Shown: positions 26,231-56,724 of the stretch, piece after piece
Layout: every line of letters starts with the position of its first letter
Numbering within the stretch: the stretch's first letter is position 1
Assembly: GCA_947501325.1 (NCBI GenBank)
Contig: CANMVC010000001.1
Coordinates: 372,001 to 436,000, forward strand
Reading direction: 5' to 3'
Length of the DNA stretch: 64,000 bases
From: an uncultured Sphingomonadaceae bacterium
GTDB lineage: Bacteria > Pseudomonadota > Alphaproteobacteria > Sphingomonadales > Sphingomonadaceae
Made by a program: the position numbers and the translations under genes
Notes under the pieces: model-generated
Told to the model about the DNA's origin: nothing
The model's database searches: none
The model's input: only the letters and a program-made list of their open reading frames with translations

Positions 26231-26258
26231 TTGCGCCTCACGGTTTAAATGGTAAGTT
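26231..26258 (+). promoter_or_regulatory. Candidate promoter of the exported-enzyme operon
   Basis: -35-like TTGCGC (26231-26236), a 16-bp spacer and -10-like TAAGTT (26253-26258). The last two bases of the -10 are the first two of the operator core. The geometry is identical to the promoter at 32059-32086, which is the main reason for calling it. Confidence 0.5.
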
Positions 26259-26269
26259 GTCCGGACAAC
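26256..26269. promoter_or_regulatory. TTGTCCGGACAA operator (site 1)
   Basis: GTTGTCCGGACAAC, a perfect 14-bp palindrome with core at 26257-26268. It overlaps the candidate -10 and the start region of the operon at 26290, 21 bases before the ATG. A bound repressor here would block initiation. Confidence 0.8.
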
Positions 26270-26289
26270 ATTATCATGAAGGACCTGCC

Positions 26290-27099
26290 ATGACGTCTCT
26301 GTCTAGCCTCGCCGCTCTAGCGCTCGCCGCGACCACACCACATGGTACGACGCTGGGAGAAATATTGCCTGGAATTTATACGAATGAGGAACAGGCCTAT
26401 TTCGAGAGAGACGCGGGCCGCACGCCACCGAGTTGGATTGCGTTAAAAATTGAAAAACAGGGCGCCGATCTGATCGTCACCCGCACGGATGCCTTCGGCA
26501 AGGCCGTTTCTGCGCCGCTAAAAGGATTTGCCGCCGTCGGGGTGGAACGCGACAGCCTGACATTGGACAAATGTTCGCGTAATTTTGATCGCACGGATGC
26601 GGGCTGGACCTATAGCGCGCTGCAAAATAAGAAAGCCTGTCATCAGGACTATCAGATTATCGAGGTCACTACAGATGGCGTAAAACTTCGCTTTGCTGAT
26701 GGTAGAAAAACCCAATTGAAACGCGCTCGTCCGGTTGAATGCTGGGCAGCCGCGCGCAAGACTCAACCCAAGGCGGATGGCAGTCTCGATTGGCTATTTG
26801 TTCAAAAACTCGACCTCCATGATCAAGGCGGGCGTGTCATGGTTGGCGGCGGCGATAGCGGAGCGGAACCTCTCATCTTGCGGATGCGGGCCGTCCATTG
26901 GCCCAAGCCCAGCACCAACCGCCCGAGTATGGTGCTCTATGTCCACAAGGCTGACAACCCAGACAGCGCGGTCAGCTACAGCTGGGCTGATATCGACGCC
27001 AGCAGGGTTGGCTTGAACCTGCGCTGGATGCAGGCCAGCTGTACAATCAAGGGAGCGGAACGTGCCTCGGACGTCAAAGCCGCCGATTTCCGAGGATAG
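26290..27099 (+). CDS. Probably exported protein of unknown function, faintly CpcT/CpeT-like
   Basis: A 269-residue protein. The N-terminus LSSLAALALAATTPHG is hydrophobic and may be a short signal peptide, though it lacks basic residues. The stretch LPGIYTNEEQAYFE is reminiscent of the opening of CpcT/CpeT-type chromophore lyases (GxYSNxxQA), and two later cysteines (CSRNF, KKACHQDY) fit that fold; I am not sure of this. Start ATG 26290 follows AAGGAC by six bases; an ATG at 26257 sits inside the operator and is rejected. First gene of a three-gene operon with two Tat-exported enzymes, directly under operator site 1. Confidence 0.65.
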   Translation: MTSLSSLAALALAATTPHGTTLGEILPGIYTNEEQAYFERDAGRTPPSWIALKIEKQGADLIVTRTDAFGKAVSAPLKGFAAVGVERDSLTLDKCSRNFDRTDAGWTYSALQNKKACHQDYQIIEVTTDGVKLRFADGRKTQLKRARPVECWAAARKTQPKADGSLDWLFVQKLDLHDQGGRVMVGGGDSGAEPLILRMRAVHWPKPSTNRPSMVLYVHKADNPDSAVSYSWADIDASRVGLNLRWMQASCTIKGAERASDVKAADFRG

Positions 27100-27105
27100 C
27101 CGAAC

Positions 27106-28512
27106 ATGTCCAATCTCCATCTGATCAGCAGGCGCGCCTTTGTCGGCGGGATGAGTGCATCGCTTATCGCGTGCGCAAGTCCGCGACTGACATCGACCAC
27201 CAATACAGCAGATGTCATCGTAATCGGCGCTGGCCTGGCAGGGCTACACGCCACGAAGCAGATCGAAAATGCGGGTTATAAAGTTTTATTGATTGAAGGA
27301 TCAGGCCGCATTGGTGGCCGTCTGCACACATTGGATGATTTACCCGGAAGCCCCGATGCAGGCGGTATCCAAATAGGCGCAGGCTATAAAAGGTTTCATG
27401 CGATTGCCGATGAACTGGCTGTCGAACGCTATGTCCCACCTCCTTCACCGCGAGGATCTCTTTATCACATAGGCGGGGCGTTGCTCACCGCCCAGCAATG
27501 GCCCGAAGCGGCGCAAAACAAACTGACTGCGCGAGAAAAAACAACGCCGCCAGATCGGTTGTTCTTCTCGTATCTCAAAGACCTGCCGAGGCTTGAAAAT
27601 GTCGCAGACTGGATGGAACCGGAGGCTCAGGCCATTGATATCCCGCTCCGTCAATATCTCAAGGATCAGGGGGCGTCGGGAGAAGCCCTGCGTTTGATCA
27701 ACGCCAATCTCAACGGCAACAGCATCGATACGCAATCAGCTTTGCATATGGCCAGATCACTCGCCATTTTCCGCGCTGGGGGCAGTCCAATCCGCTATGT
27801 CCGTGGCGGATCACAGCGGATGACCGACGCCATGGCCGCAGCTCTGAAAAGCGATATCCTGTTGGACAGCCCGGTTAAGGCCATTGCCGATGCGGGCAGC
27901 GGCGTTGCGCTAAGCCTTGGTGATGGACGCCAGTTCCGGGCGCGTCAGGTTATCTGCACCGCACCGTTTTCCGCCCTTCGATCAATGGATGTACAGGCAG
28001 ATCTGCCAAACAGTCTTCGCACCACGATAGCGCGGCTTCCATACACACGCGCAAGCTTCGCCTATATATCCGCAACTGAGCCGTTCTGGCAAAATGATGG
28101 CCTGCCAGAAACCATTTGGTCTGATGATCCTATTCTCGGGCGCGTGTTCGTACTGGGTGACAATCCTGCAATGGTGAAGGTCTGGCTCAATGGTCCGAGC
28201 GCAGATCTTGTTGATGCTATGGATGATGCGTCCGCCGGAGCTGCGATAATCCGTAAAATCGAAGAGGCTCGACCTTCTGCCGTTGGCAAACTGAAATTGC
28301 TTAGAATGTTCAGCTGGCAGAAAAATCCGTTTGCCCGCGGTATATATCATCATATCGGTGCCGGTCAGAGCCCCACCCTGGCACAGGCCGCGCAATATAG
28401 CGGGCAGCGTCTGCATTTTGCAGGCGAACATCTGGCACAGCAAAGCTCTGGCATAGAGGGCGCGCTGGAAAGTGGCGCTCGCGCGGCCGAACATGTGCTT
28501 ACAATGCTCTAG
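27106..28512 (+). CDS. FAD-dependent amine oxidase-family protein, Tat-exported lipoprotein
   Basis: A 468-residue flavin oxidoreductase of the monoamine oxidase/phytoene desaturase type. The signal has the twin-arginine motif S8-R-R-A-F and a lipobox LIAC (Cys23), so it would fold with FAD in the cytoplasm and be exported through Tat. FAD motif VIGAGLAGL (GxGxxG 41-46), then GRIGGRLHTL, and the C-terminal FAD segment HFAGEHLAQQSSGIEGALESG. It may oxidise an amine or a C-C/C-N bond of the newly imported substrate. Six bases after the previous gene, with GAGG upstream. Confidence 0.88.
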   Translation: MSNLHLISRRAFVGGMSASLIACASPRLTSTTNTADVIVIGAGLAGLHATKQIENAGYKVLLIEGSGRIGGRLHTLDDLPGSPDAGGIQIGAGYKRFHAIADELAVERYVPPPSPRGSLYHIGGALLTAQQWPEAAQNKLTAREKTTPPDRLFFSYLKDLPRLENVADWMEPEAQAIDIPLRQYLKDQGASGEALRLINANLNGNSIDTQSALHMARSLAIFRAGGSPIRYVRGGSQRMTDAMAAALKSDILLDSPVKAIADAGSGVALSLGDGRQFRARQVICTAPFSALRSMDVQADLPNSLRTTIARLPYTRASFAYISATEPFWQNDGLPETIWSDDPILGRVFVLGDNPAMVKVWLNGPSADLVDAMDDASAGAAIIRKIEEARPSAVGKLKLLRMFSWQKNPFARGIYHHIGAGQSPTLAQAAQYSGQRLHFAGEHLAQQSSGIEGALESGARAAEHVLTML

Positions 28513-28537
28513 TGGAAAATCATGATAAGGCACCCAT

Positions 28538-29401
28538 ATGGATGATCAGAAACCTCTAAAGCTCAACCGGCGTGAGGTCATCGCAGGCACTGGTGCGTTG
28601 GGGCTTTCGGCCTCGATCAGCAGTCATGCCAGCGCAAAAAAGCAGCCCGAAACTCTAGAGCTAAAGCAGCGCGAAATATTTGTTCTGGTGCATGGAGCAT
28701 GGCATGGCGGCTGGTGCTGGCGAGACGTGAGGACGCAGCTTGAAGCGCAAGGTCATCGGGTATTCACGCCAACCTTAACCGGTCTCGCCGACCGCGCGCA
28801 TTTGCTTTCGGCAGACATCGGCCTCGACACGCATATGAAAGATATTACTTCCCTGATCGACTATTATGATCTCAGCGACATCATATTGGTCGGCCACAGC
28901 TATGGCGGGATGGTGATTACCGGGGTGGCCGATGCCAGGAAGGATCGGATCAGTAAGATAGTCTATCTCGATGCCGCGCTGCCCAAAAATGGTGAAACTA
29001 TGATCACGCAGGGACCGGAACGGAACCAAACTATCATCGAACAGACCCGCAAAGCATTGACGGAACTGGCCCCCGACGGCATCGGTATGGCGGCCATTCC
29101 ACCGGAATTTCTGGGTATCCCCAAAGACCATCCCAGCTACGACTGGGTCGCCGAAAAGCTGACACCACATCCGCTGAAAACCTGGCTAGACCCGATTATG
29201 TTGAAAAATGGCGGATCGCTGGGCCTGAAGCGCAGCTACATTCATTGTACGGCTCCGGCTTTGCCCAATAGCAGCTTTCCCTATCATGCTGCGCAGGTGC
29301 AAGCAGATGATAGCTGGGTCTATTACGAGCTCGCTACTGGTCATGACGCGATGGTGACGGCACCGGACGAAATTGTCAGGATACTGACAGCCGCAATATA
29401 A
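28538..29401 (+). CDS. Tat-exported alpha/beta hydrolase (plant methylesterase-like)
   Basis: A 287-residue esterase-like protein. The Tat motif is L-N10-R11-R12-E-V in the first 15 residues followed by a hydrophobic stretch ending near HASA. VHGAWHGGWCW is the oxyanion-side motif of the methylesterase/hydroxynitrile lyase group and GHSYGG (Ser121) the nucleophile elbow; the His is in ATGHDAM. Start ATG 28538 has AAGG seven bases upstream. Last gene of the exported trio, ending in a bidirectional terminator. Confidence 0.87.
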   Translation: MDDQKPLKLNRREVIAGTGALGLSASISSHASAKKQPETLELKQREIFVLVHGAWHGGWCWRDVRTQLEAQGHRVFTPTLTGLADRAHLLSADIGLDTHMKDITSLIDYYDLSDIILVGHSYGGMVITGVADARKDRISKIVYLDAALPKNGETMITQGPERNQTIIEQTRKALTELAPDGIGMAAIPPEFLGIPKDHPSYDWVAEKLTPHPLKTWLDPIMLKNGGSLGLKRSYIHCTAPALPNSSFPYHAAQVQADDSWVYYELATGHDAMVTAPDEIVRILTAAI

Positions 29402-29451: not shown

Positions 29452-31902
29452 TCAGTACCGGGCTGTCAAAACAACCCCAAATCTGCGGCCGGGCCGAAGA
29501 CCCGCGATAAAGTTACGCTTGAACGTATCGTCACCATCAGCATAGCGAATAATCTGCGCGACTGAATCTTCGTCAAACAGGTTTTTGACATAACCCTGTA
29601 TCTTGAAGTTCTCATTCTGGAAGCCGAGCCGGATGTCAGAAACAACCGATCCGCCTGTTTCCGCAAGATTATGAACCTGTGCAAAGCTGGTCGAAACCAC
29701 GCTGACATTGGCGCCTGCAAATAGCTCCCAATCGCCAGAACCCACCGGCATTCGCCAATCTGCATCTGCAAATATCTGATGGACTGGCGCGCGCGGAATG
29801 CTCTTGCCTTTGATTGATCCAAAGATCGATTGGCAGCCCGCTGTGTCCGGGAATTCGTCTCCAGTTGAGCAGTTTACCAGATTATCGTCAGCGACATCAT
29901 CCAGCACGCCCTGGTTCTGATCGAAGCCCGATGTAAATTTGCTGTCAGCAAGGGCATAATTGATTGTAAAGGTGAGGTTGTCGCTTGGCTTCAAAACCGT
30001 TTCCAATTCGAGACCAAATACCCGTGCATCGCCTGCATTAACCACAGCCGACACAACACTCGTCGGAGACTGGACATTCTGGGTTAACTGGTATCCTTCT
30101 ATTTCGTTGTAGAAGGCTGCTAAATTGACCGTCAGCGCGCGATCGAGAAAGACGTTCTTCGAACCAATTTCATAGGCAGTTGCTTCTTCCTCCTGATAGG
30201 AAGGCACACCGGCATTAATGGCTGTAACACCATTGAAACCGCCGGGTTTCTGGCCTTGCGCAAAAGTGGCATAAAGCAAGTTATCCGGTGTGACCTGCCA
30301 ATCGAGCAAGACACGCGGAGAAAATTTGGTGAATGTCTCCGATGATAATACTGGTGTCACTGCCGGATCGCCCAAATCACGGTCAATCACTGATTGCTCG
30401 ATTTTCTCTTCCGCATAGCGTGCTTCTACACTCAGCGTTACCGTATCGGTAATATCGAAACCCACAGCACCAAAAATGGCCCAGTTACGCAAGTCCTGAT
30501 TGTTGACATTGCGCGGAACGATCACCGTTCCGGCTCCCGCAGGGTCAGTCAGGAAGTTAAAGAAGCAGCCATTGGCTGGGGAACATAACTCCGCACGGCG
30601 GGCTTCTGAATTAGCCAGAGCACGTGCATTGGCATCGGCCGGTAGCGTTCGGATATCGCGGCTATCATCGCTTTGGTCGAAATAAAAGCCACCAACCATC
30701 ACATCAATGCCATCACCATCATAGGCCAAGCGGAGTTCTTGCGACCAGTCTTCGGTCTCACCAGCATTAGCGAATGAAAAGTCGGTTGGGCCTCCATTGA
30801 CGATGCCGATGCCTACAGGTCCTGCTGGGAAAGTAGCAAATGTGGAGGGCTGAAAACTATTCGGACCATAATCGCCGTCCGTCACCAGACTATCCCTCAC
30901 GCGATTATAACCCGTCAAGGATGTCAGCGTCAGTTGATCACTAATTTCATAATCCATACGCAAACTGGCGTTAAATGTTTTCACATTCAAACCCACGTCA
31001 TCGGGATCGGCAAATTGTCGGGTATAGTCGGTGTTAATCTGTCCAGGCTGAATCACGCCACAGAAATAGCGGCCTGCCCCTCCATAGAAGCCGCCATTGT
31101 CAAAGAAGCAGTTATTGTCACTCGCGCTGGTTGCAAAAATAGCCGGTTGGCCATCATCTGTGCGGTTATAGTAGGTCCGCACCTGTGCGGTAAAAGGTCC
31201 GCCATCATCGAAGGCAAAACCACCAGCGAAAGAATAGGACTTCTGCTTGCCCACCTTGTTACCATCGAACAAGTTGGTATATTCACCACCAAATTCAAAA
31301 TAACGGCCAGAAGCAAAGGCTGTGATGGAATCGGTTACGGGACCACGAATATTGGCATTGATATCAAAGCGGCTATTCTCTGAGATGTCGGCAGATATAC
31401 TGCCCGTCAAATTATCTGCACCAGTCTTTGAAATGATATTGATCGCGCCAGAATAGGTATTACGCCCATAAAGTGCACTTTGCGGACCCTTAACGACTTC
31501 GATCCGTTCGATATTATCGACATTATAATCACCGATAGAGCCACTAAAATAGATCCCATCGATAAAAATAGCGACGCCCGACGTACCCAGCACATTGGCT
31601 TGACCACGAATGACGGGACGGTCCGCATCCCGACCTAGGCTTGCATCAAATGTCAAACCGGCGGTGACTTTCGAAATATCAGCGACGCTGTCTAGCGCGA
31701 GATCATCGATCACTTCGGCCGAAACAACGGCAACCGATGTTGGGATTTCTTGTAGGTTTTCAGAAAATTTCCGCGCCGTGACAATTATAACATCGGAATC
31801 ATCCTCAGCAGCGGTATCATTAGTGCCCACATTTTGTGCCAAGACCGAGGACGGCATGGCCGCCGTTGCCGCCAAAAGCGCAGCTTTCAATATCTTTTTC
31901 AT
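29452..31902 (-). CDS. TonB-dependent outer-membrane receptor
   Basis: An 816-residue receptor with signal peptide ending SVLAQ (about 22), TonB-box-like DVIIVTARKFSENLQEIPTSVAVV, plug containing GPQSALYGRNTYSGAINII, and a barrel ending RFGVVLTARY with the aromatic terminal residue needed for BAM insertion. It is more similar in layout to 23631-25970 than to the third receptor. Two operator palindromes sit upstream (31924 and 31971), the nearer 22 bases from the ATG, so it should be tightly controlled by the same regulator as the divergent nine-gene operon. Confidence 0.94.
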   Translation of the reverse strand: MKKILKAALLAATAAMPSSVLAQNVGTNDTAAEDDSDVIIVTARKFSENLQEIPTSVAVVSAEVIDDLALDSVADISKVTAGLTFDASLGRDADRPVIRGQANVLGTSGVAIFIDGIYFSGSIGDYNVDNIERIEVVKGPQSALYGRNTYSGAINIISKTGADNLTGSISADISENSRFDINANIRGPVTDSITAFASGRYFEFGGEYTNLFDGNKVGKQKSYSFAGGFAFDDGGPFTAQVRTYYNRTDDGQPAIFATSASDNNCFFDNGGFYGGAGRYFCGVIQPGQINTDYTRQFADPDDVGLNVKTFNASLRMDYEISDQLTLTSLTGYNRVRDSLVTDGDYGPNSFQPSTFATFPAGPVGIGIVNGGPTDFSFANAGETEDWSQELRLAYDGDGIDVMVGGFYFDQSDDSRDIRTLPADANARALANSEARRAELCSPANGCFFNFLTDPAGAGTVIVPRNVNNQDLRNWAIFGAVGFDITDTVTLSVEARYAEEKIEQSVIDRDLGDPAVTPVLSSETFTKFSPRVLLDWQVTPDNLLYATFAQGQKPGGFNGVTAINAGVPSYQEEEATAYEIGSKNVFLDRALTVNLAAFYNEIEGYQLTQNVQSPTSVVSAVVNAGDARVFGLELETVLKPSDNLTFTINYALADSKFTSGFDQNQGVLDDVADDNLVNCSTGDEFPDTAGCQSIFGSIKGKSIPRAPVHQIFADADWRMPVGSGDWELFAGANVSVVSTSFAQVHNLAETGGSVVSDIRLGFQNENFKIQGYVKNLFDEDSVAQIIRYADGDDTFKRNFIAGLRPGRRFGVVLTARY

Positions 31903-31923: not shown

Positions 31924-31939
31924 AATTGTCCGGACAATT
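31924..31939. promoter_or_regulatory. TTGTCCGGACAA operator (site 2)
   Basis: AATTGTCCGGACAATT, a perfect 16-bp palindrome, core 31926-31937, just upstream of the receptor start at 31902. Close enough to the start codon to overlap the transcribed leader. Confidence 0.85.
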
Positions 31940-31970: not shown

Positions 31971-31986
31971 ATTTGTCCAGACAAAT
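31971..31986. promoter_or_regulatory. TTGTC-N2-GACAA operator (site 3)
   Basis: ATTTGTCCAGACAAAT: perfect seven-base arms around CA instead of CG. It lies 47 bp centre-to-centre from site 2, upstream of the receptor promoter region. Confidence 0.75.
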
Positions 31987-32058: not shown

Positions 32059-32086
32059 TTGCAATCACCCGCCTCTTGCGTAATTT
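32059..32086 (+). promoter_or_regulatory. Candidate promoter of the nine-gene operon
   Basis: -35-like TTGCAA (32059-32064), 16-bp spacer, -10-like TAATTT (32081-32086). The operator core begins in the last two bases of the -10, the same geometry as at 26231-26268. Confidence 0.55.
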
Positions 32087-32096
32087 GTCCGGACAA
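32085..32096. promoter_or_regulatory. TTGTCCGGACAA operator (site 4)
   Basis: Perfect 12-bp palindrome 20 bases before the ATG of the DUF1330 gene, covering the candidate -10 and start region. Confidence 0.82.
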
Positions 32097-32116: not shown

Positions 32117-32419
32117 ATGCCCGCCTATATGATCGTTACCGCCAAGATTTCAGACCGTGACAAGTTCATAAAGGGTTATGGCGCTGCCGCTGGCACTCTG
32201 GTCGAAAAATTTGGTGGCAGATACGTGCTGCGCGGCCCGGGAGCGGAGCTTCTGGAAGGCGATTTTGGCGATGGTGCTTCCATGGTCATTTCCGAATGGC
32301 CAGACAAGGCGGCCGTCCATAAATTCTGGAACAGCCCGGAATATCAGGAAGCCAAAAAGCTGCGGGCCGACATCGCCGATTGTCAGGTCCTCGTCATCGA
32401 AAGCCCCAAAATCGCATGA
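32117..32419 (+). CDS. DUF1330 protein
   Basis: A 100-residue ferredoxin-like alpha+beta barrel protein (MPAYMIVTAKISDRDKFIKGY ... ASMVISEWPDKAAVHKFWNSPEYQEAKKLR), complete relative to the family. The biochemical role of DUF1330 is unsettled; dimeric alpha-beta barrel relatives include small monooxygenases and cyclases. GGAGAGG lies eight bases before the ATG. First gene of the nine-gene operon, directly behind operator site 4, and overlapping the next gene by four bases. Confidence 0.85.
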   Translation: MPAYMIVTAKISDRDKFIKGYGAAAGTLVEKFGGRYVLRGPGAELLEGDFGDGASMVISEWPDKAAVHKFWNSPEYQEAKKLRADIADCQVLVIESPKIA

Positions 32420-32889
32420 CGGACATTATCAAACGCACGACCCTGATGGTTCGCGACGGTGACGCAGCCTCCAACTGGTATGAAACCGTTTTCGGCATGA
32501 CCAAGTGGATGGACACGCCCTTTACGCTGTCGGGTACGCAGCTAGCCGCTGGCAAGAAAGGTGATCAGACCCGGTTGATCATCATGAAATGCGAGCACGA
32601 CATGATTGGCATGATCGGCCTGCTCGAATGGATCGATCCCAAACAGGATGCGCCGGAAGAATTGCCCACCGAAATCAAATTCGGCGCACCGGTTTTTGTT
32701 GTCGCGTCCGAAGATGCCAGGGGCGCAGTCGAACGCGCCCGCGCGCTCGGCTCTCGCATTCACAGCGAACCTCGCGAATGGAGCGTTACCGGCGCAGATG
32801 GCAAACAAAAGGATATGATCGGCTGTTCCTTCTGGGATCTGGATGGCTATTTCTTTGAAGTGAATCAGGTCGTGAAGGTTCATGACTGA
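32416..32889 (+). CDS. VOC (glyoxalase/bleomycin resistance) superfamily protein
   Basis: A 157-residue protein with the VOC pattern: KRTTLMVRDGDAASNWYETVFGM at the first beta-alpha-beta unit and DMIGCSFWDLDGYFFEVNQVV at the C-terminal metal-side strand. The real start is ATG 32416, set by the ATGA overlap; the longer reading frame begins inside the DUF1330 gene. VOC proteins include metal-dependent isomerases, epimerases and ring-cleavage dioxygenases, so the reaction is open. One of three VOC genes in this region. Confidence 0.82.
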   Translation: MTDIIKRTTLMVRDGDAASNWYETVFGMTKWMDTPFTLSGTQLAAGKKGDQTRLIIMKCEHDMIGMIGLLEWIDPKQDAPEELPTEIKFGAPVFVVASEDARGAVERARALGSRIHSEPREWSVTGADGKQKDMIGCSFWDLDGYFFEVNQVVKVHD

Positions 32890-33984: not shown

Positions 33985-33996
33985 GGGAGACGGGTT

Positions 33997-34449
33997 ATGA
34001 GTGAGAAACAGCAGACACGGTTTCAGCGCGGCAATTTTGTCGTGGCCGATATCGATCGCGCGCTGACCTTCTATCGCGATGTGCTGGGTTTTGAAGAAAC
34101 TTTCCGCAAGGGCCATAATCCCGACAGCTATTCTTTCCCGGTCTTTGAGATTCCCAAGGAAGCGGAGATCGGATTTTCCATCCTTTCCCTGCCGAGCCAG
34201 CCCCGCGTGATGGCGCTGTCAGAGGTTAAAAATGTTCCGCTGGAACCCGTTCCTCATCCGCGGCGCGGCGCGATTGTGCTGGATGTGGCTGATCCCGATG
34301 CGGTGAGGGAAGGCGCGCGAAAGCTGGGCCTGCAGGTCTATGAAGAAGGCCGGCTTGAAACCCATGACGGGCGGATCGGACGGGAAATCGGCATTGTCGA
34401 CTTTGATGATAATCTGGTCGTTATCTATCTCATCCCGGATACTCAATAA
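33997..34449 (+). CDS. VOC (glyoxalase) superfamily protein
   Basis: A 150-residue VOC protein: RGNFVVADIDRALTFYRDVLGFEE opens the first module and GREIGIVDFDDNLVVIYLIPD closes the second. A single-domain member likely to dimerise. Distinct from the VOC protein encoded at 32416. It precedes the transporter gene with a TAATG one-base overlap. Confidence 0.85.
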   Translation: MSEKQQTRFQRGNFVVADIDRALTFYRDVLGFEETFRKGHNPDSYSFPVFEIPKEAEIGFSILSLPSQPRVMALSEVKNVPLEPVPHPRRGAIVLDVADPDAVREGARKLGLQVYEEGRLETHDGRIGREIGIVDFDDNLVVIYLIPDTQ

Positions 34450-36595: not shown

Positions 36596-36894
36596 AAGCC
36601 TTTGCCATCTATTGCACCGACAAACCGGACACCGAACAGAAACGTCTCGACGCACGCGGCGCGCATTTTGCCCATATCGAGAAGACCATCGACAATCTGT
36701 TTGTCGCCGGACCTTTTAAAAATGCGCAAGGCGATACGATTGGATCGCTGTTGATCGTCAAGGCCGAGACGGCCGAAGATGCCCGCGCGCAGCTCGAAGC
36801 CGATCCCTATTATCATGCCGATATCTGGGCCGATATTCGCATTCATGAATTTACCGCAGCCGCTGGCGACTGGATTGGCGGCAAGATATGGTAG
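36592..36894 (+). CDS. YciI-like protein
   Basis: A 100-residue ferredoxin-like fold protein with the YciI pattern: MKAFAIYCTDKPDTEQKRLDARGAHFAHIE, then GPFKN and a C-terminal ADIWADIRIHEF. YciI relatives include muconolactone isomerase-like and dehydrochlorinase-like enzymes using a His-Asp pair. Start set by ATGA overlap with the hydrolase-like gene. Function in this pathway unknown. Confidence 0.82.
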   Translation: MKAFAIYCTDKPDTEQKRLDARGAHFAHIEKTIDNLFVAGPFKNAQGDTIGSLLIVKAETAEDARAQLEADPYYHADIWADIRIHEFTAAAGDWIGGKIW

Positions 36895-36923
36895 GTTTTC
36901 CCAATCGCTGAGGAGAGCAGAAA

Positions 36924-37526: not shown

Positions 37527-37530
37527 AGCA

Positions 37531-49244: not shown

Positions 49245-49251
49245 AAGATGT

Positions 49252-50445
49252 TCAGACTATCCCTTTCGCACGCAGGTCAGCAATCGCACCCGAATCATAA
49301 CCGGCTTCAGCCAGAACCGCATCACTATCAGCCCCGAGCAGTGGCCCTGCCCGACTAGGCAGCCGCTCGCCATTCAGCTTGATCGGGCTCGACAGGACAT
49401 TCATGTCTGCGCGATCCGGATGGCTGACCGTATCCCGCATGCCAATGGTCTTCAACCAAGGGCTGTCGAGTGCCTGATCCAGGCTATAGACCGGCGCAAT
49501 CGGCATCAGGCCCTGCAGCAGCTCCAGCCAGTGCGCGACCGGATGCGCGGCAAAGATATCGCTCAAAATATCCGACAAGGCCGAGCGGTTGGTCAGGCGA
49601 TTGGCCGGTGTGTCAAAACGCGGATCCGTCATTAGCTCTTCATGACCGATCCGCTCGCATAATATGGTCCAGAATTTGGGCAGCTGTGCCATGACGAACA
49701 TCCAGCCATCGGCGGCCTTGAACATCTGGCTCGGCGTGGCGGACGGATGCGCGCCATAGGGTGCACGGCCCGTCACATCTTCCTCGTTCATATACCACAG
49801 CGCGGGATAGCTGGTCTGATGTACAGCGGCAGACAACAGATCAACATCGACATCGCAGCCTTCGCCCGAACGCTGCGCATCCAGCAAAGCGGCGAGCAGG
49901 CCAACGGCGGCCATTGTGCCGGTCATGAAATCGACCATCGACAGGCCAAAGCGCACGGGCGGCCCGTCAGGCTCTCCGGTAAGCGCACAAAAACCGGCCT
50001 CTGCCTGCATGAGATAGTCATAGCCCGGCCATTTCGACCGTTCGTTGCCGCGCCCGTAGGCAGAAATATGGGCACAGACGATGGCCGGATTAACGGTCTT
50101 TAGAGCATCATAGTTGAGGCCGACCTTGTCCGGCACATCACCGCGCAGATTATTCGCCACGACATGTGCGTCTTTGGCGAGTGTGTGCAGCACCTCCTGC
50201 CCTTCGTCGGTGCGCAGATCAAGGGTGAGCGAGCGCTTGTTCAGATTGAAGCTCTGAAAATAGAGGCTTTCCTGTTCGCGCAGCCAGTGTGGCCCGACAT
50301 GGCGTGCCGTGTCACCGCCTTTTGGTGGTTCAATCTTGATTACATCGGCGCCCATCTGGGCAAGGAACATGGTTCCGTAAGGGCCGGCACCATATTGTTC
50401 GGCAGAGAGGACGCGAAAGCCTTTAAGTGGTTGTCTTGCAGTCAT
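49252..50445 (-). CDS. Class III CoA-transferase (CaiB/BaiF)
   Basis: A 397-residue paralogue with catalytic Asp143 in WPGYDYLMQAEAGF and GADVIKIEPPKGGD near the N-terminus. It is clearly diverged from the adjacent 362-residue copy. Seven bases separate the two genes. Together with MaoC and CitE types it completes the kind of set used for itaconate or mesaconate activation. A 145-bp gap with an inverted repeat separates it from the acyl-CoA dehydrogenase. Confidence 0.9.
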   Translation of the reverse strand: MTARQPLKGFRVLSAEQYGAGPYGTMFLAQMGADVIKIEPPKGGDTARHVGPHWLREQESLYFQSFNLNKRSLTLDLRTDEGQEVLHTLAKDAHVVANNLRGDVPDKVGLNYDALKTVNPAIVCAHISAYGRGNERSKWPGYDYLMQAEAGFCALTGEPDGPPVRFGLSMVDFMTGTMAAVGLLAALLDAQRSGEGCDVDVDLLSAAVHQTSYPALWYMNEEDVTGRAPYGAHPSATPSQMFKAADGWMFVMAQLPKFWTILCERIGHEELMTDPRFDTPANRLTNRSALSDILSDIFAAHPVAHWLELLQGLMPIAPVYSLDQALDSPWLKTIGMRDTVSHPDRADMNVLSSPIKLNGERLPSRAGPLLGADSDAVLAEAGYDSGAIADLRAKGIV

Positions 50446-50450
50446 AACTT

Positions 50451-50575
50451 AAGCCCCTCCTCTTTCGGGGAGGGGTTTGGGGTGGGGCATGCAAGATCAA
50501 AGGAGTTCGCTAACGCGAGCGATGTTTGCACATCGCCCCCACCCCTTTCCCCTCCCCTGAAGGGGAGGGGCTTTT
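50451..50575. repeat. MITE/BIME-like imperfect inverted repeat
   Basis: Left arm from 50451 and right arm ending 50575 match as AAGCCCCTCC-N6-GGGGAGGGG-N3-GGGGTGGGG then GCAA, in opposite orientation, about 45 bases each with roughly 35 bases between. It fills the gap between two genes of one operon. No coding capacity. It is the short non-autonomous or REP-type repeat seen in many alphaproteobacteria; origin not determined. Confidence 0.75.
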
Positions 50576-50590
50576 TCGTGGTCAACTCAC

Positions 50591-51769
50591 TCACGCAGGG
50601 TTCCTCTTGACCCATTGTTTGGAAATAATCATCCGCTGCATCTCGTTGGTCCCTTCACCAATACACATAAGCAATGAATCGCGATAATAGCGCTCGATTT
50701 CATATTCCTTGGAATAGGCATAGCCGCCATGGACGCGCATGGATTCCTCAGAATTGCGCACCGCCGCTTCCGATGCAAAATATTTCGCCATGCCCGCTTC
50801 CAGATCACAGCGCTCCCCGCGATCATAGGCTTCCGCCGCATCAAGGGTCAGCAAACGCGCGGCTCTTGCGCGGGTCACCATTTCACCCAGTTTCAACTGG
50901 ATCGCCTGATGTTCGGATATTGGCTTGCCCATTGTCTCGCGCAGCTGCGCATATTCAGTGGCGAGCCGAAGCGAACCCTCGGCCAGACCAACGCCCCGCG
51001 CAGCAACATTGATACGGCCCAGCTCCAGACCGCCTGTGGCCTGAAAAAAGCCCTGGCCTTCGACACCGCCGATAAGATTGTCCGCCGGAATACGATAATT
51101 GTCGAACACAAGCTCCGCGCTGTCGATGCTGTTATATCCCAGCTTTTTGAACTTCTTGCCAACCGTAAAGCCTTCCCCCTTGGGCGCTATCATCAGGCTC
51201 ATACCCTTATAGCGCGGATCTGCCTTGGGGTCGGTTTTGACCAACAGTGCAAAACAGCTGCCGTTAATGCCGTTGGAAATCCAGGTCTTGGTGCCGTTGA
51301 TGACATATTCATTGCCGTCGCGGACAGCCGTGGTGCGGATCGCCTGCAAATCCGTACCCGCATTGGGCTCGGTTAGCGCCAGCCCGCCGCGAATTTCGCC
51401 GCTGGCAAATTTGGGCAGCCATTTGGCTTTTTGCTCGGCCGTACCAAAACGCTCGACCGCACAGGCCATGATCAGGTGCGAATTGAAAATGCCGGTTATT
51501 GCCATCCAGTGCGAGGCTATTTCGGCCACGATCTTCGCATAGCTGGTCGCTGGCAAGCCGAGGCCGCCATATTCCTCGCCAATGGTGGCGCCGAACAGAC
51601 CCATGTCGGCCATTTCGCCCACCAGTTGCTCCGGCCATTTGTCCTCGTGATCATGCTCCATGACCACAGGCTTCACGGAACGGGTGATCCATTTCTGGAT
51701 CGCATCCATGAAAGCCTGTTCTTCTTCCGGATCAATCATATGCTGTGCATTATCAATTGCCGTTGCCAT
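50591..51769 (-). CDS. Acyl-CoA dehydrogenase
   Basis: A 392-residue FAD acyl-CoA dehydrogenase. ALTEPNAGTDL is the flavin contact, TWISNG the middle-domain signature, and the C-terminal SKEYEIERYYRDS region holds the catalytic base area. It resembles glutaryl-CoA/methylsuccinyl-CoA-like and short-branched-chain members. It would introduce a 2,3-double bond into the CoA ester delivered by the CoA-transferases. AGGAG lies eight bases before its ATG. ETF genes are not in the window. Confidence 0.92.
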   Translation of the reverse strand: MATAIDNAQHMIDPEEEQAFMDAIQKWITRSVKPVVMEHDHEDKWPEQLVGEMADMGLFGATIGEEYGGLGLPATSYAKIVAEIASHWMAITGIFNSHLIMACAVERFGTAEQKAKWLPKFASGEIRGGLALTEPNAGTDLQAIRTTAVRDGNEYVINGTKTWISNGINGSCFALLVKTDPKADPRYKGMSLMIAPKGEGFTVGKKFKKLGYNSIDSAELVFDNYRIPADNLIGGVEGQGFFQATGGLELGRINVAARGVGLAEGSLRLATEYAQLRETMGKPISEHQAIQLKLGEMVTRARAARLLTLDAAEAYDRGERCDLEAGMAKYFASEAAVRNSEESMRVHGGYAYSKEYEIERYYRDSLLMCIGEGTNEMQRMIISKQWVKRNPA

Positions 51770-51833
51770 TTTCGTCGCTCCTGAGTGTCTTAAAACTGGG
51801 GTTCCCTCCCCCGTTTATTTTGTCGTCGACTTT

Positions 51834-52343
51834 TTAATCGTCCGCGCCGCCAAAGCCGCGCTTCCAGATCAGCATGGTGCGTTCAAATGTGCACACAACC
51901 TTGTCATCCTGGTTCTTGCCAATTGTCTTTATGGTGACAATGCCCTGTTCCGGACGTGAAGAGGATTCCCGCTTTTCCAGCACTTCGCTCTCGGCATAGA
52001 GCGTATCACCGGGAAATAACGGATGGGTGAGGCGGATTTTGTCCCAACCAAGATTGGCCACCGCTTTCTGGCTGGTATCGGAAACGCTCATCCCGACCAT
52101 CAACGCGACGGTGAGCGGAGAGCAGACCAGCGGCTTTTCAAATTCGGTTTTCTTGGCAAATTCATAGTCAAAATGCGCAGGATGCGTGTTCATCGTCAGC
52201 AAGGTGAAATGCACATTGTCGGTATCGGTGATCGTCCGGCCGGGACGATGCTCGTAAATATGCCCCTCTACAAAATCTTCAAAATAGCGTCCGAACGTTT
52301 CGCGGAAACGTCCCGAGCTGACTTCTATAACTCCATCACGCAT
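51834..52343 (-). CDS. MaoC-like (R)-specific enoyl-CoA hydratase
   Basis: A 169-residue hot-dog protein. DTDNVHFTLLTMNTHPAHFDYEFA carries the hydratase residues (N52, H57), and FPGDTLYAESEVLEKRESSSRPEQGIV matches mesaconyl-CoA/itaconyl-CoA-type hydratases. The single hot-dog length suggests a homodimer. It would hydrate an enoyl-CoA to a 3-hydroxyacyl- or citramalyl-type CoA. Start ATG 52343 follows AAGGA by seven bases. Confidence 0.88.
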   Translation of the reverse strand: MRDGVIEVSSGRFRETFGRYFEDFVEGHIYEHRPGRTITDTDNVHFTLLTMNTHPAHFDYEFAKKTEFEKPLVCSPLTVALMVGMSVSDTSQKAVANLGWDKIRLTHPLFPGDTLYAESEVLEKRESSSRPEQGIVTIKTIGKNQDDKVVCTFERTMLIWKRGFGGADD

Positions 52344-52381
52344 GTAATTGTCCTTGTTGATTAAACATTCTGGTCTTCGCT

Positions 52382-53209
52382 TTATCCGACTGCTGCCGCG
52401 ATATGCCTATATCGTTGCATAACCGGCGCCTCTAACATACGCCCATTATGACTAATCGCTTTACCGCCGGCTGCGTCAAAAGCATTGATTGCGTCTATCG
52501 CTTCGGCCACTTCCGCCGCCGTCGGTTTCATGGTCTTGGCGATGAGAGCGATCTGCTTGGGATGGATAGCAGCCTTGGCGTGAAAACCCATGGCTTTTGC
52601 TTTAGCGGATTCCTCTTCCAGACCGGCCTCATTGCCCATGTCGATATAGGGGACGTCAATCGCGGCGATCGCAGCCGAAGCGCAGCACAAAATAAACGCA
52701 CCGCGCGCAGCCAGCAGCGGTTCCCATTCCAGCCTGGTGCCCAGCTCTGCGGAAAAATCGCCGCCACCGAACATCATAGCGGTGACGCCGGCGCTCGCGG
52801 CAATGGCATCACCGGCGCGCAGGCCTTTGACGGTTTCGATCAGCGGGACCAGACCGTCGACCCGGTCGCCTAAAATGCTATGTGCAATTTCAACCTCGGT
52901 AGCGCTTTCAACCATCGGCAGAAAAAGCAGAGCAGGAAGACGATCAGCGGCTGAAAAGGCGAGCAGGTCAGTCAGACCGGCAGCCGTCCTGAGCCCATTG
53001 ATTCGTACCGCCGTTTTTGACCGGTCGAGCGTTTTCAGGGCATCCATAACGGATTCGCGCGCGCTTTCCTTTTGATCTGCAGGCACCGAATCCTCCAAAT
53101 CGATACAGATCAAATCTGCACCACTATTCGCCGCTTTTTCAAAGCGTTCAGGCCTGTTGGCAGGTACAAAAAGGAAGTTGGTAAAACCGGTCATAGGATC
53201 CAATATCAT
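52382..53209 (-). CDS. HpcH/HpaI (CitE-like) CoA-ester lyase
   Basis: A 275-residue (beta/alpha)8 lyase. NFLFVPANRPERFEKA at the N-terminus, CIDLEDSVP carrying metal/substrate residues, LIETVKG and FGGGDFSAELG are CitE/citramalyl-CoA or malyl-CoA lyase hallmarks. It would cleave a 3-hydroxyacyl-type CoA into acetyl-CoA plus an oxoacid. ATG 53194 gives a more family-like N-terminus and is an alternative start. First gene of the CoA operon; operator site 5 lies 27 bp before the ATG. Confidence 0.9.
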   Translation of the reverse strand: MILDPMTGFTNFLFVPANRPERFEKAANSGADLICIDLEDSVPADQKESARESVMDALKTLDRSKTAVRINGLRTAAGLTDLLAFSAADRLPALLFLPMVESATEVEIAHSILGDRVDGLVPLIETVKGLRAGDAIAASAGVTAMMFGGGDFSAELGTRLEWEPLLAARGAFILCCASAAIAAIDVPYIDMGNEAGLEEESAKAKAMGFHAKAAIHPKQIALIAKTMKPTAAEVAEAIDAINAFDAAGGKAISHNGRMLEAPVMQRYRHIAAAVG

Positions 53210-53234: not shown

Positions 53235-53250
53235 ATTTGTCCGGACAAAT
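53235..53250. promoter_or_regulatory. TTGTCCGGACAA operator (site 5)
   Basis: ATTTGTCCGGACAAAT, a perfect 16-bp palindrome, core 53237-53248, in the divergent gap between the CitE-type lyase and the DUF1838 gene. It can control both. Confidence 0.85.
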
Positions 53251-53318: not shown

Positions 53319-54227
53319 ATGAATCGAATTTTTAGGCGGACTGCTTTGGCAACAATGGTAGCATCCTTTGCTCTTGCCAGCCCTTCGTCCGCACGGACCC
53401 TTGATCCGAAAAAACCAGAAGATGCCCTGGAAATTATGAAACGGACGCAATGTGGCACTGCTGACGGTGTCCCTGCCGTCTATCATTGGTCCGGCAAAGT
53501 CTATTCCCGCGTACAGGGCGAACCCGATCGGCATCTGTATAATGGCGAAGGCATGAATATCCGGCAATGTGTCCGGATCGAAGACCCCAAGCGCGGCGTC
53601 GGCTATCGTCAGGTCAGCCGCGAAGTGATGTTCTATCTTGATCCCAAGACCAATGAAATATTGCGCACCTGGGACAATCCATGGACGGGCGAGACGGTCA
53701 AAGTGATGCAAATTGCCAATGACCCTGTAAACAGCCGTCCCAACTATCCTTACCGCGCCGATGGCACGCCATACACGCTGCCCAATATCCGGCAGCAGGG
53801 CAACTGGATGTTCATGCCGATCGAAGTGCCGCTCTTCTATCACAATGTATTGGCGGGCGATTATCAGGATTATGTCGGCAATAAATATCATGCGATGGAG
53901 ATTTTCGACTTCACCATGCTCGCTGATGAAATTCTCGATACCAATAATCCCACCGCTTATCCGTCGATCAGTTGGGTACGGATTTCCGACTGGATGCCGT
54001 GGATGAAAATGCGCGGGCGGCAGGGACAGATGGTGTTCAACGCCATGGGCGCAAAGCTGAAAAGCTATGATGAGCTGCCGGACGTGATCAAGGATGAGAT
54101 TGCGCTCAACTATCCCGAATATACCGCGCCGCCACCCGGCGATGATCCGCGCAAGAATGAAACCACCTGGACGGTGTTCAAGAAGATGATTGATGCAGAG
54201 CGGGCGGCGGAAGCGGACAAAAAGTAA
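53319..54227 (+). CDS. Exported DUF1838 protein
   Basis: A 302-residue protein with Sec signal peptide (NRIFRRTALATMVASFALASPSSA, cut at about 25) followed by a DUF1838 domain: YHWSGKVYSRVQGEPDRHLYNGEGMNIRQC, EVMFYLDPKTNEILRTWDNPWTG and ISWVRISDWMPWMKM. The biochemical function of DUF1838 is unknown; members occur in catabolic clusters. ATG 53319 is preferred because AGGGAG lies nine bases upstream; ATG 53310 directly overlaps that site. Single-gene unit, ended by a strong terminator, with operator site 5 about 70 bp upstream. Confidence 0.85.
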   Translation: MNRIFRRTALATMVASFALASPSSARTLDPKKPEDALEIMKRTQCGTADGVPAVYHWSGKVYSRVQGEPDRHLYNGEGMNIRQCVRIEDPKRGVGYRQVSREVMFYLDPKTNEILRTWDNPWTGETVKVMQIANDPVNSRPNYPYRADGTPYTLPNIRQQGNWMFMPIEVPLFYHNVLAGDYQDYVGNKYHAMEIFDFTMLADEILDTNNPTAYPSISWVRISDWMPWMKMRGRQGQMVFNAMGAKLKSYDELPDVIKDEIALNYPEYTAPPPGDDPRKNETTWTVFKKMIDAERAAEADKK

Positions 54228-54286: not shown

Positions 54287-54973
54287 CTAAAACGGCTTGA
54301 TATTACCAAGAAATGCGGTGGCGAGTAGCAACAGATAGACAATCCAAACCCAAATACGCGTGGTGTCCATCGTCTTGCGGAGCGGGATTTCTGTTTCATC
54401 CGATGATCCCTCGGCAATCAGCTTGCCGAGCTGCGGCCCTACGGGCTTGAACGCAACATCGATCATGATGGCCGCGGCAAAGATCAGGCCGAACATCAAC
54501 GCCTTGGTCGCCAGCCATATGGGGATTAGCGGCTCGCCTTGCACCAGCGAGAGGATGCCGAGACCCAGATAGAAAAGGGTCAGGCCGATTTTCAGCACGA
54601 ACTCGATTTTCCGGTCACGCGCCGCCCGCTCCGTCTGGTCATGGATATGCGCGTCCCAGACCAGCCACAGCCACACGGCACCAACCACCCAGGACAAAGC
54701 CACGCCCCAGCCCGGCACATTCCACCAGCCGCCAGCATCGACCATCGTGATCGTCAGCGGGACCATAAGGGCCCAGGCCGTCCGCGGTGTCATGTCGAGA
54801 TTGACGAGCAGTTGCAGCAGAACCAGCCGCTGCGGCAAATCATATTTCTCCCGCTTGCGAAAATGCTGACCGAGCATGAACACGCCCACATCGGCGCCGA
54901 GCCACAGGACAAACAGGATGATGTGGATAAAGACGAGCAGCTGATAAAAGGAAAAGTTGAATAATTCTGTCAT
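54287..54973 (-). CDS. Integral membrane protein of unknown function
   Basis: A 228-residue protein with about six hydrophobic segments (for example FYQLLVFIHIILFVLWLGADVGVFML, WVVGAVWLWLVW, IWVWIVYLLLLATAFLG). A His in the first segment and the HxxxxxxLWLG pattern resemble CopD-/DUF2269-like membrane proteins, which may bind heme or metal. It could partner with the exported DUF1838 protein or a TonB receptor (inference). Operator site 6 lies 44 bp before the ATG, so it belongs to the same regulon. Confidence 0.75.
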   Translation of the reverse strand: MTELFNFSFYQLLVFIHIILFVLWLGADVGVFMLGQHFRKREKYDLPQRLVLLQLLVNLDMTPRTAWALMVPLTITMVDAGGWWNVPGWGVALSWVVGAVWLWLVWDAHIHDQTERAARDRKIEFVLKIGLTLFYLGLGILSLVQGEPLIPIWLATKALMFGLIFAAAIMIDVAFKPVGPQLGKLIAEGSSDETEIPLRKTMDTTRIWVWIVYLLLLATAFLGNIKPF

Positions 54974-55017: not shown

Positions 55018-55029
55018 ATGTCCGGACAA
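55018..55029. promoter_or_regulatory. TTGTCCGGACAA-like operator (site 6)
   Basis: ATGTCCGGACAA; the inner 10 bp TGTCCGGACA is a perfect palindrome and only the first base departs from the core. It lies in front of the membrane-protein gene on the minus strand. On that strand TTGCAA precedes it as a possible -35, putting the operator in the promoter spacer. Confidence 0.7.
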
Positions 55030-55040: not shown

Positions 55041-55511
55041 TCAATCCATCACCCGCTGCTCGTCGCACAAGGTGCGCTTGAACAATTGTCCGTCCTTGAA
55101 CCAGTGCCACGTCCGCGCCCGGTGGTTGCCATCGTCGCCTAGACAAATAATCTCATAGAAATTCGCCCCCGGGTCATCCTTGCGATTGAGGTTGAGCAGG
55201 ACAAGCCCGAAATCCGTTTCCCAGCCGCAACCATCAAAATTTTCATTGTCCCACCAAAGTTTGCCGTCGCGCAGCACACCGTTCAGGGTGGAGCGATATT
55301 CCCGGCCATCCTCCCATTGAAACAGGTTTTTCTGGACATAGGCATAGCGGCCATCATGCGGGAATATGCATTCGACGCGCGCCTGGTGCTGATCGACCAG
55401 CTGGTTGTCCGTGTCGACATGGCGATAGGTCCCTGTCCAGATTCCTTCATGCTTCATCATGCCGGGCATGATTCCGGTCAAAATGGGTTTGCTTAGCGCC
55501 GCCACGGCCAA
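55041..55511 (-). CDS. DUF3598-like (lipocalin-type) protein
   Basis: A 156-residue protein. HEGIWTGTYRHVDTDNQLVDQHQARVECIFP followed by YAYVQKNLFQWEDGREY looks like the N-terminal half of DUF3598 proteins, a beta-barrel family of unknown function. TTG 55511, three to four bases after GAGGA, is used as start; ATG 55469 would give a 142-residue protein beginning close to the conserved region. No signal peptide. Divergent from the LysR regulator gene across 122 bp. Confidence 0.7.
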   Translation of the reverse strand: MAVAALSKPILTGIMPGMMKHEGIWTGTYRHVDTDNQLVDQHQARVECIFPHDGRYAYVQKNLFQWEDGREYRSTLNGVLRDGKLWWDNENFDGCGWETDFGLVLLNLNRKDDPGANFYEIICLGDDGNHRARTWHWFKDGQLFKRTLCDEQRVMD

Positions 55512-55633
55512 ATATCCTCGCTGCTCCGTAATATTTTGATTCCGCTAGGCGACCTGATAGGAGACAGCTAACAACCGATATTGGCTTAAGCACAGCTATT
55601 GATTGTGATGAGCCTTCATGAAAGGACCTGATC

Positions 55634-56623
55634 ATGAGCAAACCCGATCTGCGCCAGCGCTTTATCAAGCCCTCCATGGATCCCCAAAAATTGCAGCATT
55701 TTCTCTCCGTCTATGACACGGGAAGCTTCTCTCGCGCCGCCAGTAACAATGGTGTCAGCCAGCAGGCAGTGTCGAAAAGCATTGCGAAACTGGAAGAAAG
55801 CCTTGGCGTCAAACTGTTCGAACGCGGTGCTTTTGGAGCCGAACCCAACCGGTTTGGCGAAGCTCTGGCGCGCCGGGCGAAAGTCATTACCGCCGAAAGC
55901 CGCCTCGCCGCTGCCGAGATCAGCGCCCTGCGCGGCGCCGATAAAGGCTATGTCCGCATTGGCCTTGGCTGGTCTTTCCTCACTCGCATTGCCCCTATGG
56001 TCATCAATCGTTTCAGTGAAAAACAGCCCGGGGTCACCCTCAGCATCACGTCAGGCGACACCAAATCGCTTTACGAGAAACTGTTGCGCGGAGAAGTCGA
56101 ATTTGTCGCCAGCGCCCCGCCGACCGATCTGGAAATCGACTCTGCCATCGATACCACCGAGATGTTCGAGGACCGCGATGTCGTCATGATGCGGCGGGAT
56201 CATCCGCTTGCTTCCAAGTCCGACATAACACTGGAAGACCTAGCGTCCCAGACATGGCTGGTGTCCATGCAGCTTCAGATGCAATGGCAGCGCATCTGTA
56301 ACGTCTTTCTCGCCGCCGGGCTCTCCCCGCCGGCCAAATATGTCGATATGGATTCGGTCATCCTCGCCAAATCGACCTTGCTGCAAAGTGACGCGGTCAT
56401 GCTGCTCGCCAAGGAATTGTTCGCGACCGAGGAAGAACGCGCGCAATATCATATCGTGGAAGGCACCGAATTCCCCGTAGCACGCACCGCCTATTTCGCG
56501 ATTCGCCGCAATTCGGTGCTGCAACCAGCAGCCCAGAGCCTGAAAAACGAGCTGATTGCCGCCTGCCGCTCCGTAGTCGGGATTAAGCAGCTGCGCGGCA
56601 TGACTGTGGCGGAAAAACCATAA
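55634..56623 (+). CDS. LysR-family transcriptional regulator
   Basis: A 329-residue LTTR. The winged helix-turn-helix is at about 17-75 (FSRAASNNGVSQQAVSKSIAKLEESLGVKLFERG), followed by the two-lobed effector domain. Seven bases separate AGGA from ATG 55634; a second Met at residue 15 is possible. LTTRs usually regulate a divergent gene, here the DUF3598-like gene, or the TonB receptor downstream. It is a second regulatory input next to the GntR protein. Confidence 0.92.
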   Translation: MSKPDLRQRFIKPSMDPQKLQHFLSVYDTGSFSRAASNNGVSQQAVSKSIAKLEESLGVKLFERGAFGAEPNRFGEALARRAKVITAESRLAAAEISALRGADKGYVRIGLGWSFLTRIAPMVINRFSEKQPGVTLSITSGDTKSLYEKLLRGEVEFVASAPPTDLEIDSAIDTTEMFEDRDVVMMRRDHPLASKSDITLEDLASQTWLVSMQLQMQWQRICNVFLAAGLSPPAKYVDMDSVILAKSTLLQSDAVMLLAKELFATEEERAQYHIVEGTEFPVARTAYFAIRRNSVLQPAAQSLKNELIAACRSVVGIKQLRGMTVAEKP

Positions 56624-56710
56624 AAACGCGGAAAATTCATCTGGTTGTAGTGATAGGCCAATTGGTTGTTAGCATTCGCCCTATCAAGAAGATTAGCCCT
56701 AACCTTTAAA

Positions 56711-56724
56711 TTTGTCTGGACAAC
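56711..56724. promoter_or_regulatory. TTGTC-N2-GACAA operator (site 7)
   Basis: TTTGTCTGGACAAC with perfect five-base arms TTGTC/GACAA (core 56712-56723) and TG at the centre. It is 52 bp upstream of the third TonB receptor's ATG. Confidence 0.75.

Follow-up and report, generated by a model that had tools for sequence, protein, structure and literature searches.

A short palindrome recurs at gene starts in a 64,000-nucleotide window of an uncultured Sphingomonadaceae bacterium (GenBank assembly GCA_947501325.1, contig CANMVC010000001.1, positions 372,001 to 436,000), and raises the question of which protein reads it and which genes that protein governs. The window, by which we mean this whole stretch, is C1:372001-436000 of genome G000 (3.58 Mb). 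Judged from sequence, the palindromes are a real, conserved operator set. Their extended form, AATTTGTCCGGACAAATT, is very probably the operator of the GntR-family regulator encoded at 47368-48147 within the same gene island; we make this assignment because of the clustering, placement and conservation of the sites, their co-occurrence with the regulator gene, and their GT-N4-AC geometry.

The palindrome and its clustering

The exact core, TTGTCNNGACAA, occurs six times in the window (26257, 31926, 31973, 32085, 53237 and 56712), and a variant, ATGTCCGGACAA, stands at 55018. A preliminary description of this DNA had reported these seven sites, and every position was verified in the letters, as were the 16-base palindromes placed at 31924 and 53235 (sites 31926 and 53237). 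The extent given as 7-2-7 at 31971 was measured as 8-2-8 (site 31973), and the near-matches in coding DNA number three instead of one: 23828 and 25258, both within a TonB receptor gene, and 63390, within a CN-hydrolase gene. The sites and two weaker matches are as follows, with scores against the position weight matrix (PWM) described below; gene identities are from Pfam and NCBIfam profile searches.

26257 to 26268: operator TTGTCCGGACAA, 21 bp before the forward-strand operon 26290-29401; PWM 26.6
31926 to 31937: operator, 23 bp before the reverse-strand receptor gene TonB_B (29452-31902); 16-base palindrome; PWM 21.0
31973 to 31984: operator TTGTCCAGACAA, 70 bp before TonB_B; 8-2-8 palindrome; PWM 33.6
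32085 to 32096: operator, 20 bp before the DUF1330 gene and its forward-strand nine-gene operon (32117-38040); PWM 34.0
53237 to 53248: operator between the reverse-strand RipC-like lyase operon (53209-48156) and the forward-strand DUF1838 gene (from 53319); PWM 32.3
55018 to 55029: operator ATGTCCGGACAA, 44 bp before the reverse-strand membrane-protein gene 54287-54973; PWM 27.5
56712 to 56723: operator TTGTCTGGACAA, 52 bp before the forward-strand receptor gene TonB_C (from 56776) and the genes downstream; PWM 30.3
63390 to 63401: weak match TTGTCCGTACAA, within the CN-hydrolase gene; it precedes the methyltransferase gene MT1 by 107 bp; PWM 19.1
47368 to 47379, forward strand: decayed match ATGTCCGGGAGA at the gntR start codon

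The weak match at 63390 has an operator-like left flank (TAAT), and the methyltransferase gene has a site of its own in three relatives. An operator precedes each of two membrane-protein genes, one at 54287-54973 of the window and one at 3129-3821 of L006, the stretch that includes C1:445211.

A pattern search of the whole genome found 12 exact copies of the core, as against 2 of a reversed-pattern control. The motif is not scattered over unrelated loci, which the preliminary description had named as a ground for refuting a regulon: nine of the 12 copies lie within 47 kb (C1:398257-445236), and none of the nine is inside a gene of the gene map. The window contains six of them; the other three follow shortly after its right end (C1:437863, C1:445211 and C1:445225). 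If the 12 were spread evenly this interval would hold 0.16 copies (Poisson P about 1e-13). Within the window, 10 matches with at most one mismatch were found, against a mean of 1.59 and a maximum of 6 in 100 shuffles. The three copies elsewhere are what might be said for chance clustering of a common 12-mer. Of these, C2:341277 falls in an open frame of 238 aa, C2:731986 in one of 412 aa, and C5:68485 in one of 119 aa, with a frame of 364 aa starting about 105 bp further on. Against the shuffle and Poisson figures, and the co-occurrence with GntR given below, chance clustering has a negligible probability and is ruled out. With two mismatches allowed the signal is swamped genome-wide (236 forward and 185 control matches).

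The tract to which the motif had been assigned, the central 30 kb, proved too narrow, as site-bearing operons reach to about C1:451 kb, 15 kb past the window. One of the copies on that side, TTGTCGAGACAA at C1:445211 (L006 11211-11222), was set aside as an operator. It is probably a -35-like element adjoining the operator at 445225, because most of the relatives listed keep only CTTGTCGAG at its position and because it scores lower (PWM 20.1, against 35.3 for its neighbor). We would count eight exact operators plus 55018, instead of nine exact.

The GntR regulator

A PF00392 search of the genome gave five matches, four of them above the cut-off; one match, at 47440-47628 of the window, lies inside the following frame.

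47368 to 48147, forward strand: GntR regulator with UTRA domain, 259 aa (PF00392, PF07702)

Its N-terminal GntR winged helix-turn-helix (wHTH) scores 61.4 bits (cut-off 27) and its C-terminal UTRA ligand domain, of chorismate-lyase fold, 58.6 bits (cut-off 23.8). NagR/YvoA is the best PDB match, with an alignment of near full length. By these matches the product is a GntR/UTRA protein of the HutC subfamily; the best NCBIfam model is HutC (TIGR02018), at 94.1 bits against an equivalog cut-off of 220. We propose this protein as the repressor of the island.

Conservation of sites in relatives

Neighborhoods of 40-80 kb around the GntR gene were collected from 20 relatives of 14 genera, all selected as GntR carriers, which with the window's own stretch make 21; the partial G246 was left out. 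There are 107 sites matching TTGTCYRGACAA in 18 of the 21. A called gene start is found at -60 to +300 bp for 93 of them (34 expected at random positions), and only 34 lie inside called genes (95 expected), some of which may be over-long frames since gene starts were called mechanically. The same genes bear sites again and again. By number of neighborhoods among the 21 these are an alpha/beta hydrolase (14), TonB_B (12), TonB_C (11), RipC (10), a membrane protein (9), DUF1838 (9), a 269-aa protein (8), an isochorismatase (8) and DUF1330 (7). The orthologue of the membrane protein preceded by the variant site 55018 has an exact site in nine other neighborhoods. Sites thus recur before the same genes in relatives, which is the conservation before orthologous operons that had been named as a check, and in 12 of the 14 sampled genera the island could be mapped together with its sites.

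Co-occurrence of GntR and the motif

We searched 298 genomes of the family for the GntR protein at 1e-20 and found matches in 51, of which 39 (23 genera) have at least 39% identity and 12 have 30% or less. The former are called orthologues (E < 1e-40); this cut was chosen after the list had been viewed, and falls at the gap in identity. The motif is present in 78 family genomes. The 39 orthologue carriers have 1-41 TTGTCYRGACAA sites each (mean 6.8), with at least three in 35, compared with at least three in one of the 259 non-carriers (mean 0.17). The 12 genomes with weak matches have none or one site each, and among the 247 with no GntR match, 212 have none, 34 have one or two and one (G203) has five. 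The association gives a Fisher P of 6e-40, a figure that ignores kinship; when weak-match genomes are taken as non-carriers, the carriers' mean site count is the higher in all 19 mixed genera.

At the level of loci, a site accompanies 69 of the 80 named GntR loci; the sites total 146 (centers CG 126, TG 10, CA 10), with no instance of the reversed pattern; the stretches of the 11 loci that have no site are only 4-16 kb. Two GntR orthologues are present in G168, at C2:1200458 (L128) and C3:536002 (L140), and in G060 a second GntR match is split across two frames (C1:135053-135810).

A wider sample of 385 genomes of the class yielded a GntR relative in 46 at 1e-30. With G000 excluded, sites were found in 27 of 45 genomes that have the relative and in 8 of 35 examined genomes that have none (Fisher 0.001), although the 35 tend to be smaller, which biases the comparison toward the 45. 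Totals are 57 sites against 18 reversed in the 45, and 8 against 14 reversed in the 35. Sites linked to the GntR relative stand before RipB (L209), before RipC (L211), before a RipB-ACAD-CaiB2 set (L219), between MmgE2 and GntR (L213), and elsewhere. The regulon proposed in the preliminary description is upheld by this co-occurrence across the 298 family genomes, together with the clustering in the island and the recurrence before orthologous genes.

Operator sequence and promoter geometry

From 190 distinct 28-mers, many of them from close kin, the extended operator reads AATTTGTCCGGACAAATT with the core TTGTC-YR-GACAA. Conservation extends to flanks beyond the searched core, where 93% of these sites have A at -8, 73% have A at -9 and 72% have T at -7. 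The PWM was built from the same sites, the window's own included and G072 dropped. Above 8 bits it finds 11 matches in the window and L006; ten are upstream of genes and the eleventh is 63390, inside a gene.

RipC promoters were compared in 13 genomes of 8 genera, each picked by way of the core; a separate promoter listing omits G072 and G243. All 13 have AATTTGTCCGGACAA, and 12 have the adjacent TAAAGTCAA, the reverse of TTGACTTTA, the thirteenth having TTGACC. Read in the RipC direction, the first base of the -35-like box TTGACTTTA is 12-14 bp before the core (seven RipC rows). Chiefly because the operator directly follows TTGACTTTA at these promoters, we propose repression by occlusion, and the arrangement suggests that it is RNA polymerase that is occluded. 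The same GntR protein and sites might instead serve an activator or a dual regulator, as could be read from the varied distances between sites and start codons. We rate this a minor possibility: a dimer bound downstream of TTGACTTTA at the RipC promoter should block polymerase, and NagR, a relative in the HutC subfamily, is a repressor in the excerpted account of it (PMC4333415).

Most HutC-subfamily sites are described, in an excerpt of the source, as having 4 nt between GT and AC, with the consensus NyGTMTAKACNy (PMC4494728). The operator, TTGT-CYRG-ACAA, has the GT-N4-AC spacing, assuming that this GntR protein binds it. In NagR, as excerpted, Arg38 reads G-5 and Arg48 reads G-4 (PMC4333415). 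The Arg48 equivalent is kept here as Arg61, and the Arg38 equivalent is Ser51, a position that is Ser, Thr or Ala across 12 aligned sequences; in the operator half-site, position -5 is T and position -4 is G. By analogy, this pairing of Arg61 and Ser51 with G-4 and T-5 fits the contact logic of NagR.

As regards possible autoregulation, sequence at the gntR start was compared in 77 of the 80 loci, as the anchor peptide was not found in L122, L123 and L155. An operator-like match with at most two mismatches lies 5′ of gntR in 26 of the 77 regions; five control palindromes gave 0, 3, 0, 0 and 4. In some close relatives (L173, Parasphingorhabdus marina; L118, L116 and L117) the start codon of gntR lies inside the operator, with ATGTCCGGACAA encoding Met-Ser-Gly-Gln or a near variant; the counterpart in the window genome is decayed to ATGTCCGGGAGA.

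Weighing the assignment

Several observations count against GntR as the reader of these sites. The window genome has no PWM match before MmgE2, which diverges from gntR. Where the HutC consensus has TA at its center these operators have CG, TG or CA; the M and K positions fit (C and G). Among the 45 distant genomes, 13 of the 57 sites are within 25 kb of the GntR relative, some contigs being short. Three carriers with GntR at 39-42% identity (G038, G219 and G030) have part of the island and no site in the 40-60 kb collected around GntR, and have 4, 3 and 3 sites elsewhere. G203, of the same genus, has its five TTGTCYRGACAA sites on five contigs (L194-L198), four of them within open frames of at least 120 aa, and it has no close GntR, its best score being 44.5 bits. 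Furthermore, the GntR gene and the sites share one island, so that co-occurrence alone would be compatible with another island-borne regulator.

The LysR protein encoded at 55634-56623 would be such a regulator, its gene sitting between two sites; and as the relatives were picked for GntR, the persistence of GntR among them does not speak against it. The LysR orthologue (51-95%) is present in only three of the 20 mapped relatives, with weaker matches (25-32%) in three more, whereas 17 of the 20 have sites, and a GT-N4-AC palindrome suits the GntR/HutC class. LysR, or some other island-borne protein, is an unlikely reader, with perhaps one chance in many of being the right one.

G072 poses another problem for GntR, with 41 sites of which 39 are outside the 60 kb around its GntR gene; the 12 examined are all in long open frames. 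These TTGTCCGGACAA-type sites span both contigs (e.g., L199-L208), with no instance of the reversed pattern. The examined copies fall in more than one reading frame by GC phase and have no paired AAT/ATT flanks, and G140, of the same genus, has no site; the G072 copies look like another DNA signal. The palindrome as a whole might be taken likewise for a mobile or repeated element, or for a signal other than an operator. This is very improbable, as island copies are at gene starts, keep their AAT/ATT flanks and precede the same genes across genera, and 212 of the 247 genomes with no GntR match have no site. For the window genome a repeated element was rejected on the placement of the copies. 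We retain GntR as the probable reader.

Genes of the island

The gene row, from left to right, is as follows.

Leftmost: a TonB receptor gene
26290 to 29401, forward strand: a 269-aa protein of no family (scanned from 26299), a flavin amine oxidase and an alpha/beta hydrolase
29452 to 31902, reverse strand: TonB-dependent receptor TonB_B
32117 to 38040, forward strand: nine-gene operon of DUF1330, glyoxalase fold, oxidoreductase, glyoxalase fold, MFS, alpha/beta hydrolase, YCII, CMD and SnoaL-like proteins
38037 to 47341, reverse strand: MmgE2, MmgE1, PaaK-like ligase, amidase, HapK-like, SDR, GFA-like (below cut-off), PuuE-like, ECH and glyoxalase fold
47368 to 48147: the GntR regulator described above
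48156 to 53209, reverse strand: operon of RipC-like and RipB-like proteins, an acyl-CoA dehydrogenase and two CaiB CoA-transferases
53319 to 54227, forward strand: DUF1838 protein
54287 to 54973, reverse strand: membrane protein memb1, with no Pfam or NCBIfam match
55634 to 56623: LysR protein
56776 to 63512, forward strand: TonB_C, MFS, FAD-binding oxidase and CN-hydrolase, followed by a methyltransferase gene
Right of the window, first part: a second membrane protein, a dehydrogenase, another methyltransferase, ALDH and two PuuE-like proteins
Right of the window, second part: an isochorismatase-family hydrolase, an alpha/beta hydrolase, LeuC-like, LeuD-like and HMG-CoA-lyase-like proteins and a third CaiB

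Island proteins mostly score below NCBIfam model cut-offs; the models passed are of LeuC, LeuD and HMG-CoA-lyase type. For the PuuE-like proteins the best model is the allantoinase PuuE, with scores below cut-off. The best solved relatives of the isochorismatase-family hydrolase bear the name of that family or of N-carbamoylsarcosine amidohydrolase. The search of solved structures with the DUF1838 protein gave one match, at E 0.002, which we took as chance. Two proteins of no assigned function, with weak DUF3598_N matches (16.2 and 22.4 bits), are encoded at 55041-55511 of the window and 12625-13125 of L006. A motif-free row at 13126-16351 encodes two GST-like proteins, a PEP-mutase/ICL-family protein and a PhyH-family protein.

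Proposed function

We infer binding, repression, ligand release and pathway chemistry alike from sequence. A GntR dimer would bind the palindrome with one half-site per monomer, and, when bound near start codons just past the -35-like element, would block RNA polymerase. A pathway-derived ligand in the UTRA domain would release it, and release would turn on the TonB receptors, MFS carriers and catabolic operons together. That the system is induced by its substrate we infer from the overlap of sites with promoters and from the GntR/UTRA make-up of the regulator. We read the regulator as a link between TonB uptake and a pathway whose end may be CoA chemistry like that of itaconate or methylsuccinate, with PuuE-like and amidase steps earlier. 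The PuuE-like proteins and amidases point to hydrolysis of rings and amides. Because PuuE-like, amidase and N-carbamoylsarcosine-hydrolase-like proteins adjoin the catabolic core (CaiB, acyl-CoA dehydrogenase, RipB, RipC and MmgE/PrpD), we expect substituted dicarboxylic acids freed from cyclic amides or imides.

A more specific idea, our own speculation and one with a small chance of being right, is that the regulon drives catabolism of substituted cyclic imides (maleimides or succinimides), such as the methyl-ethyl- and carboxyethyl-methyl-maleimides from oxidized chlorophyll, haem and bilins. Ring opening of the imide would fall to the PuuE-like hydrolases and the amidases and give substituted dicarboxylic acids. 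The unsaturated and saturated acids would next be cut by the LeuCD-like hydratase, together with HMG-CoA-lyase-like cleavage, and by the CaiB-ACAD-RipB-RipC set. That several copies of each step run in parallel would fit the differing side chains of the tetrapyrrole rings. If true, this would be a bacterial pathway for tetrapyrrole fragments under one GntR switch.

The assignment links an island of about 53 kb to one regulator and its operator, and the GntR orthologue reaches 23 genera of the family sample. Most island functions are guessed from family names, and a single regulon would show which genes belong together. A reporter made from GntR and the operator would make the inducer, and hence the substrate, testable. 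The preliminary description had called the system undescribed; this holds within our literature searches on the island and topic, and extends no further than those. A search for the literal 12-mer gave one paper, on fly stem cells, and searches for a described island or substrate listed nothing on the island.

Comparison with known systems

The gene set resembles at the family level the itaconate/methylsuccinate cluster of Pseudomonas aeruginosa and Cupriavidus necator, as excerpted (PMC12290011), in keeping together a CoA-transferase, a RipB/Ich-like hydratase, a RipC/Ccl-like lyase, an acyl-CoA dehydrogenase and MmgE/PrpD. Unlike the cluster in that excerpt, the island contains a GntR gene, two MmgE, three CaiB, a PaaK-like ligase, amidases, three PuuE-like proteins, and LeuCD-like and HMG-CoA-lyase-like proteins. 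The RipB-like protein scores 237.4 bits against an equivalog cut-off of 340, and the RipC-like protein 222.5 against 375; because both fall below, the acids handled by the island probably differ from itaconate and methylsuccinate. By analogy the island may work like that cluster, and we do not class it as one.

Among sphingomonads, the excerpted report on PheR of Sphingobium sp. SHPJ-2 describes an IclR-family catabolic repressor whose loss raises TonB-dependent receptors (PMC13273656). PheR and the island GntR would share a role in catabolic control; as far as that excerpt goes, regulator family, operator and substrate differ. HutC, the histidine-utilization repressor, shares subfamily and domain layout with the GntR protein, which is however far under its equivalog cut-off.

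In regulatory design there is a close likeness to NagR/YvoA of Bacillus subtilis and to DasR, which share the wHTH and UTRA domains, the palindromic GT-N4-AC operators and a recognition-helix arginine (Arg48, here Arg61); NagR too governs uptake and catabolism genes, according to the excerpted account (PMC4333415). Unlike NagR and DasR with their dre-site, the protein has Ser, Thr or Ala for Arg38, and the operator has T instead of G at -5 and a YR center that is mostly CG. The targets differ as well, amino-sugar genes in those systems and here a CoA/amide catabolic island with TonB receptors. With both Arg38 and G-5 lost, the comparison with NagR offers a test case for specificity change in HutC-type regulators.

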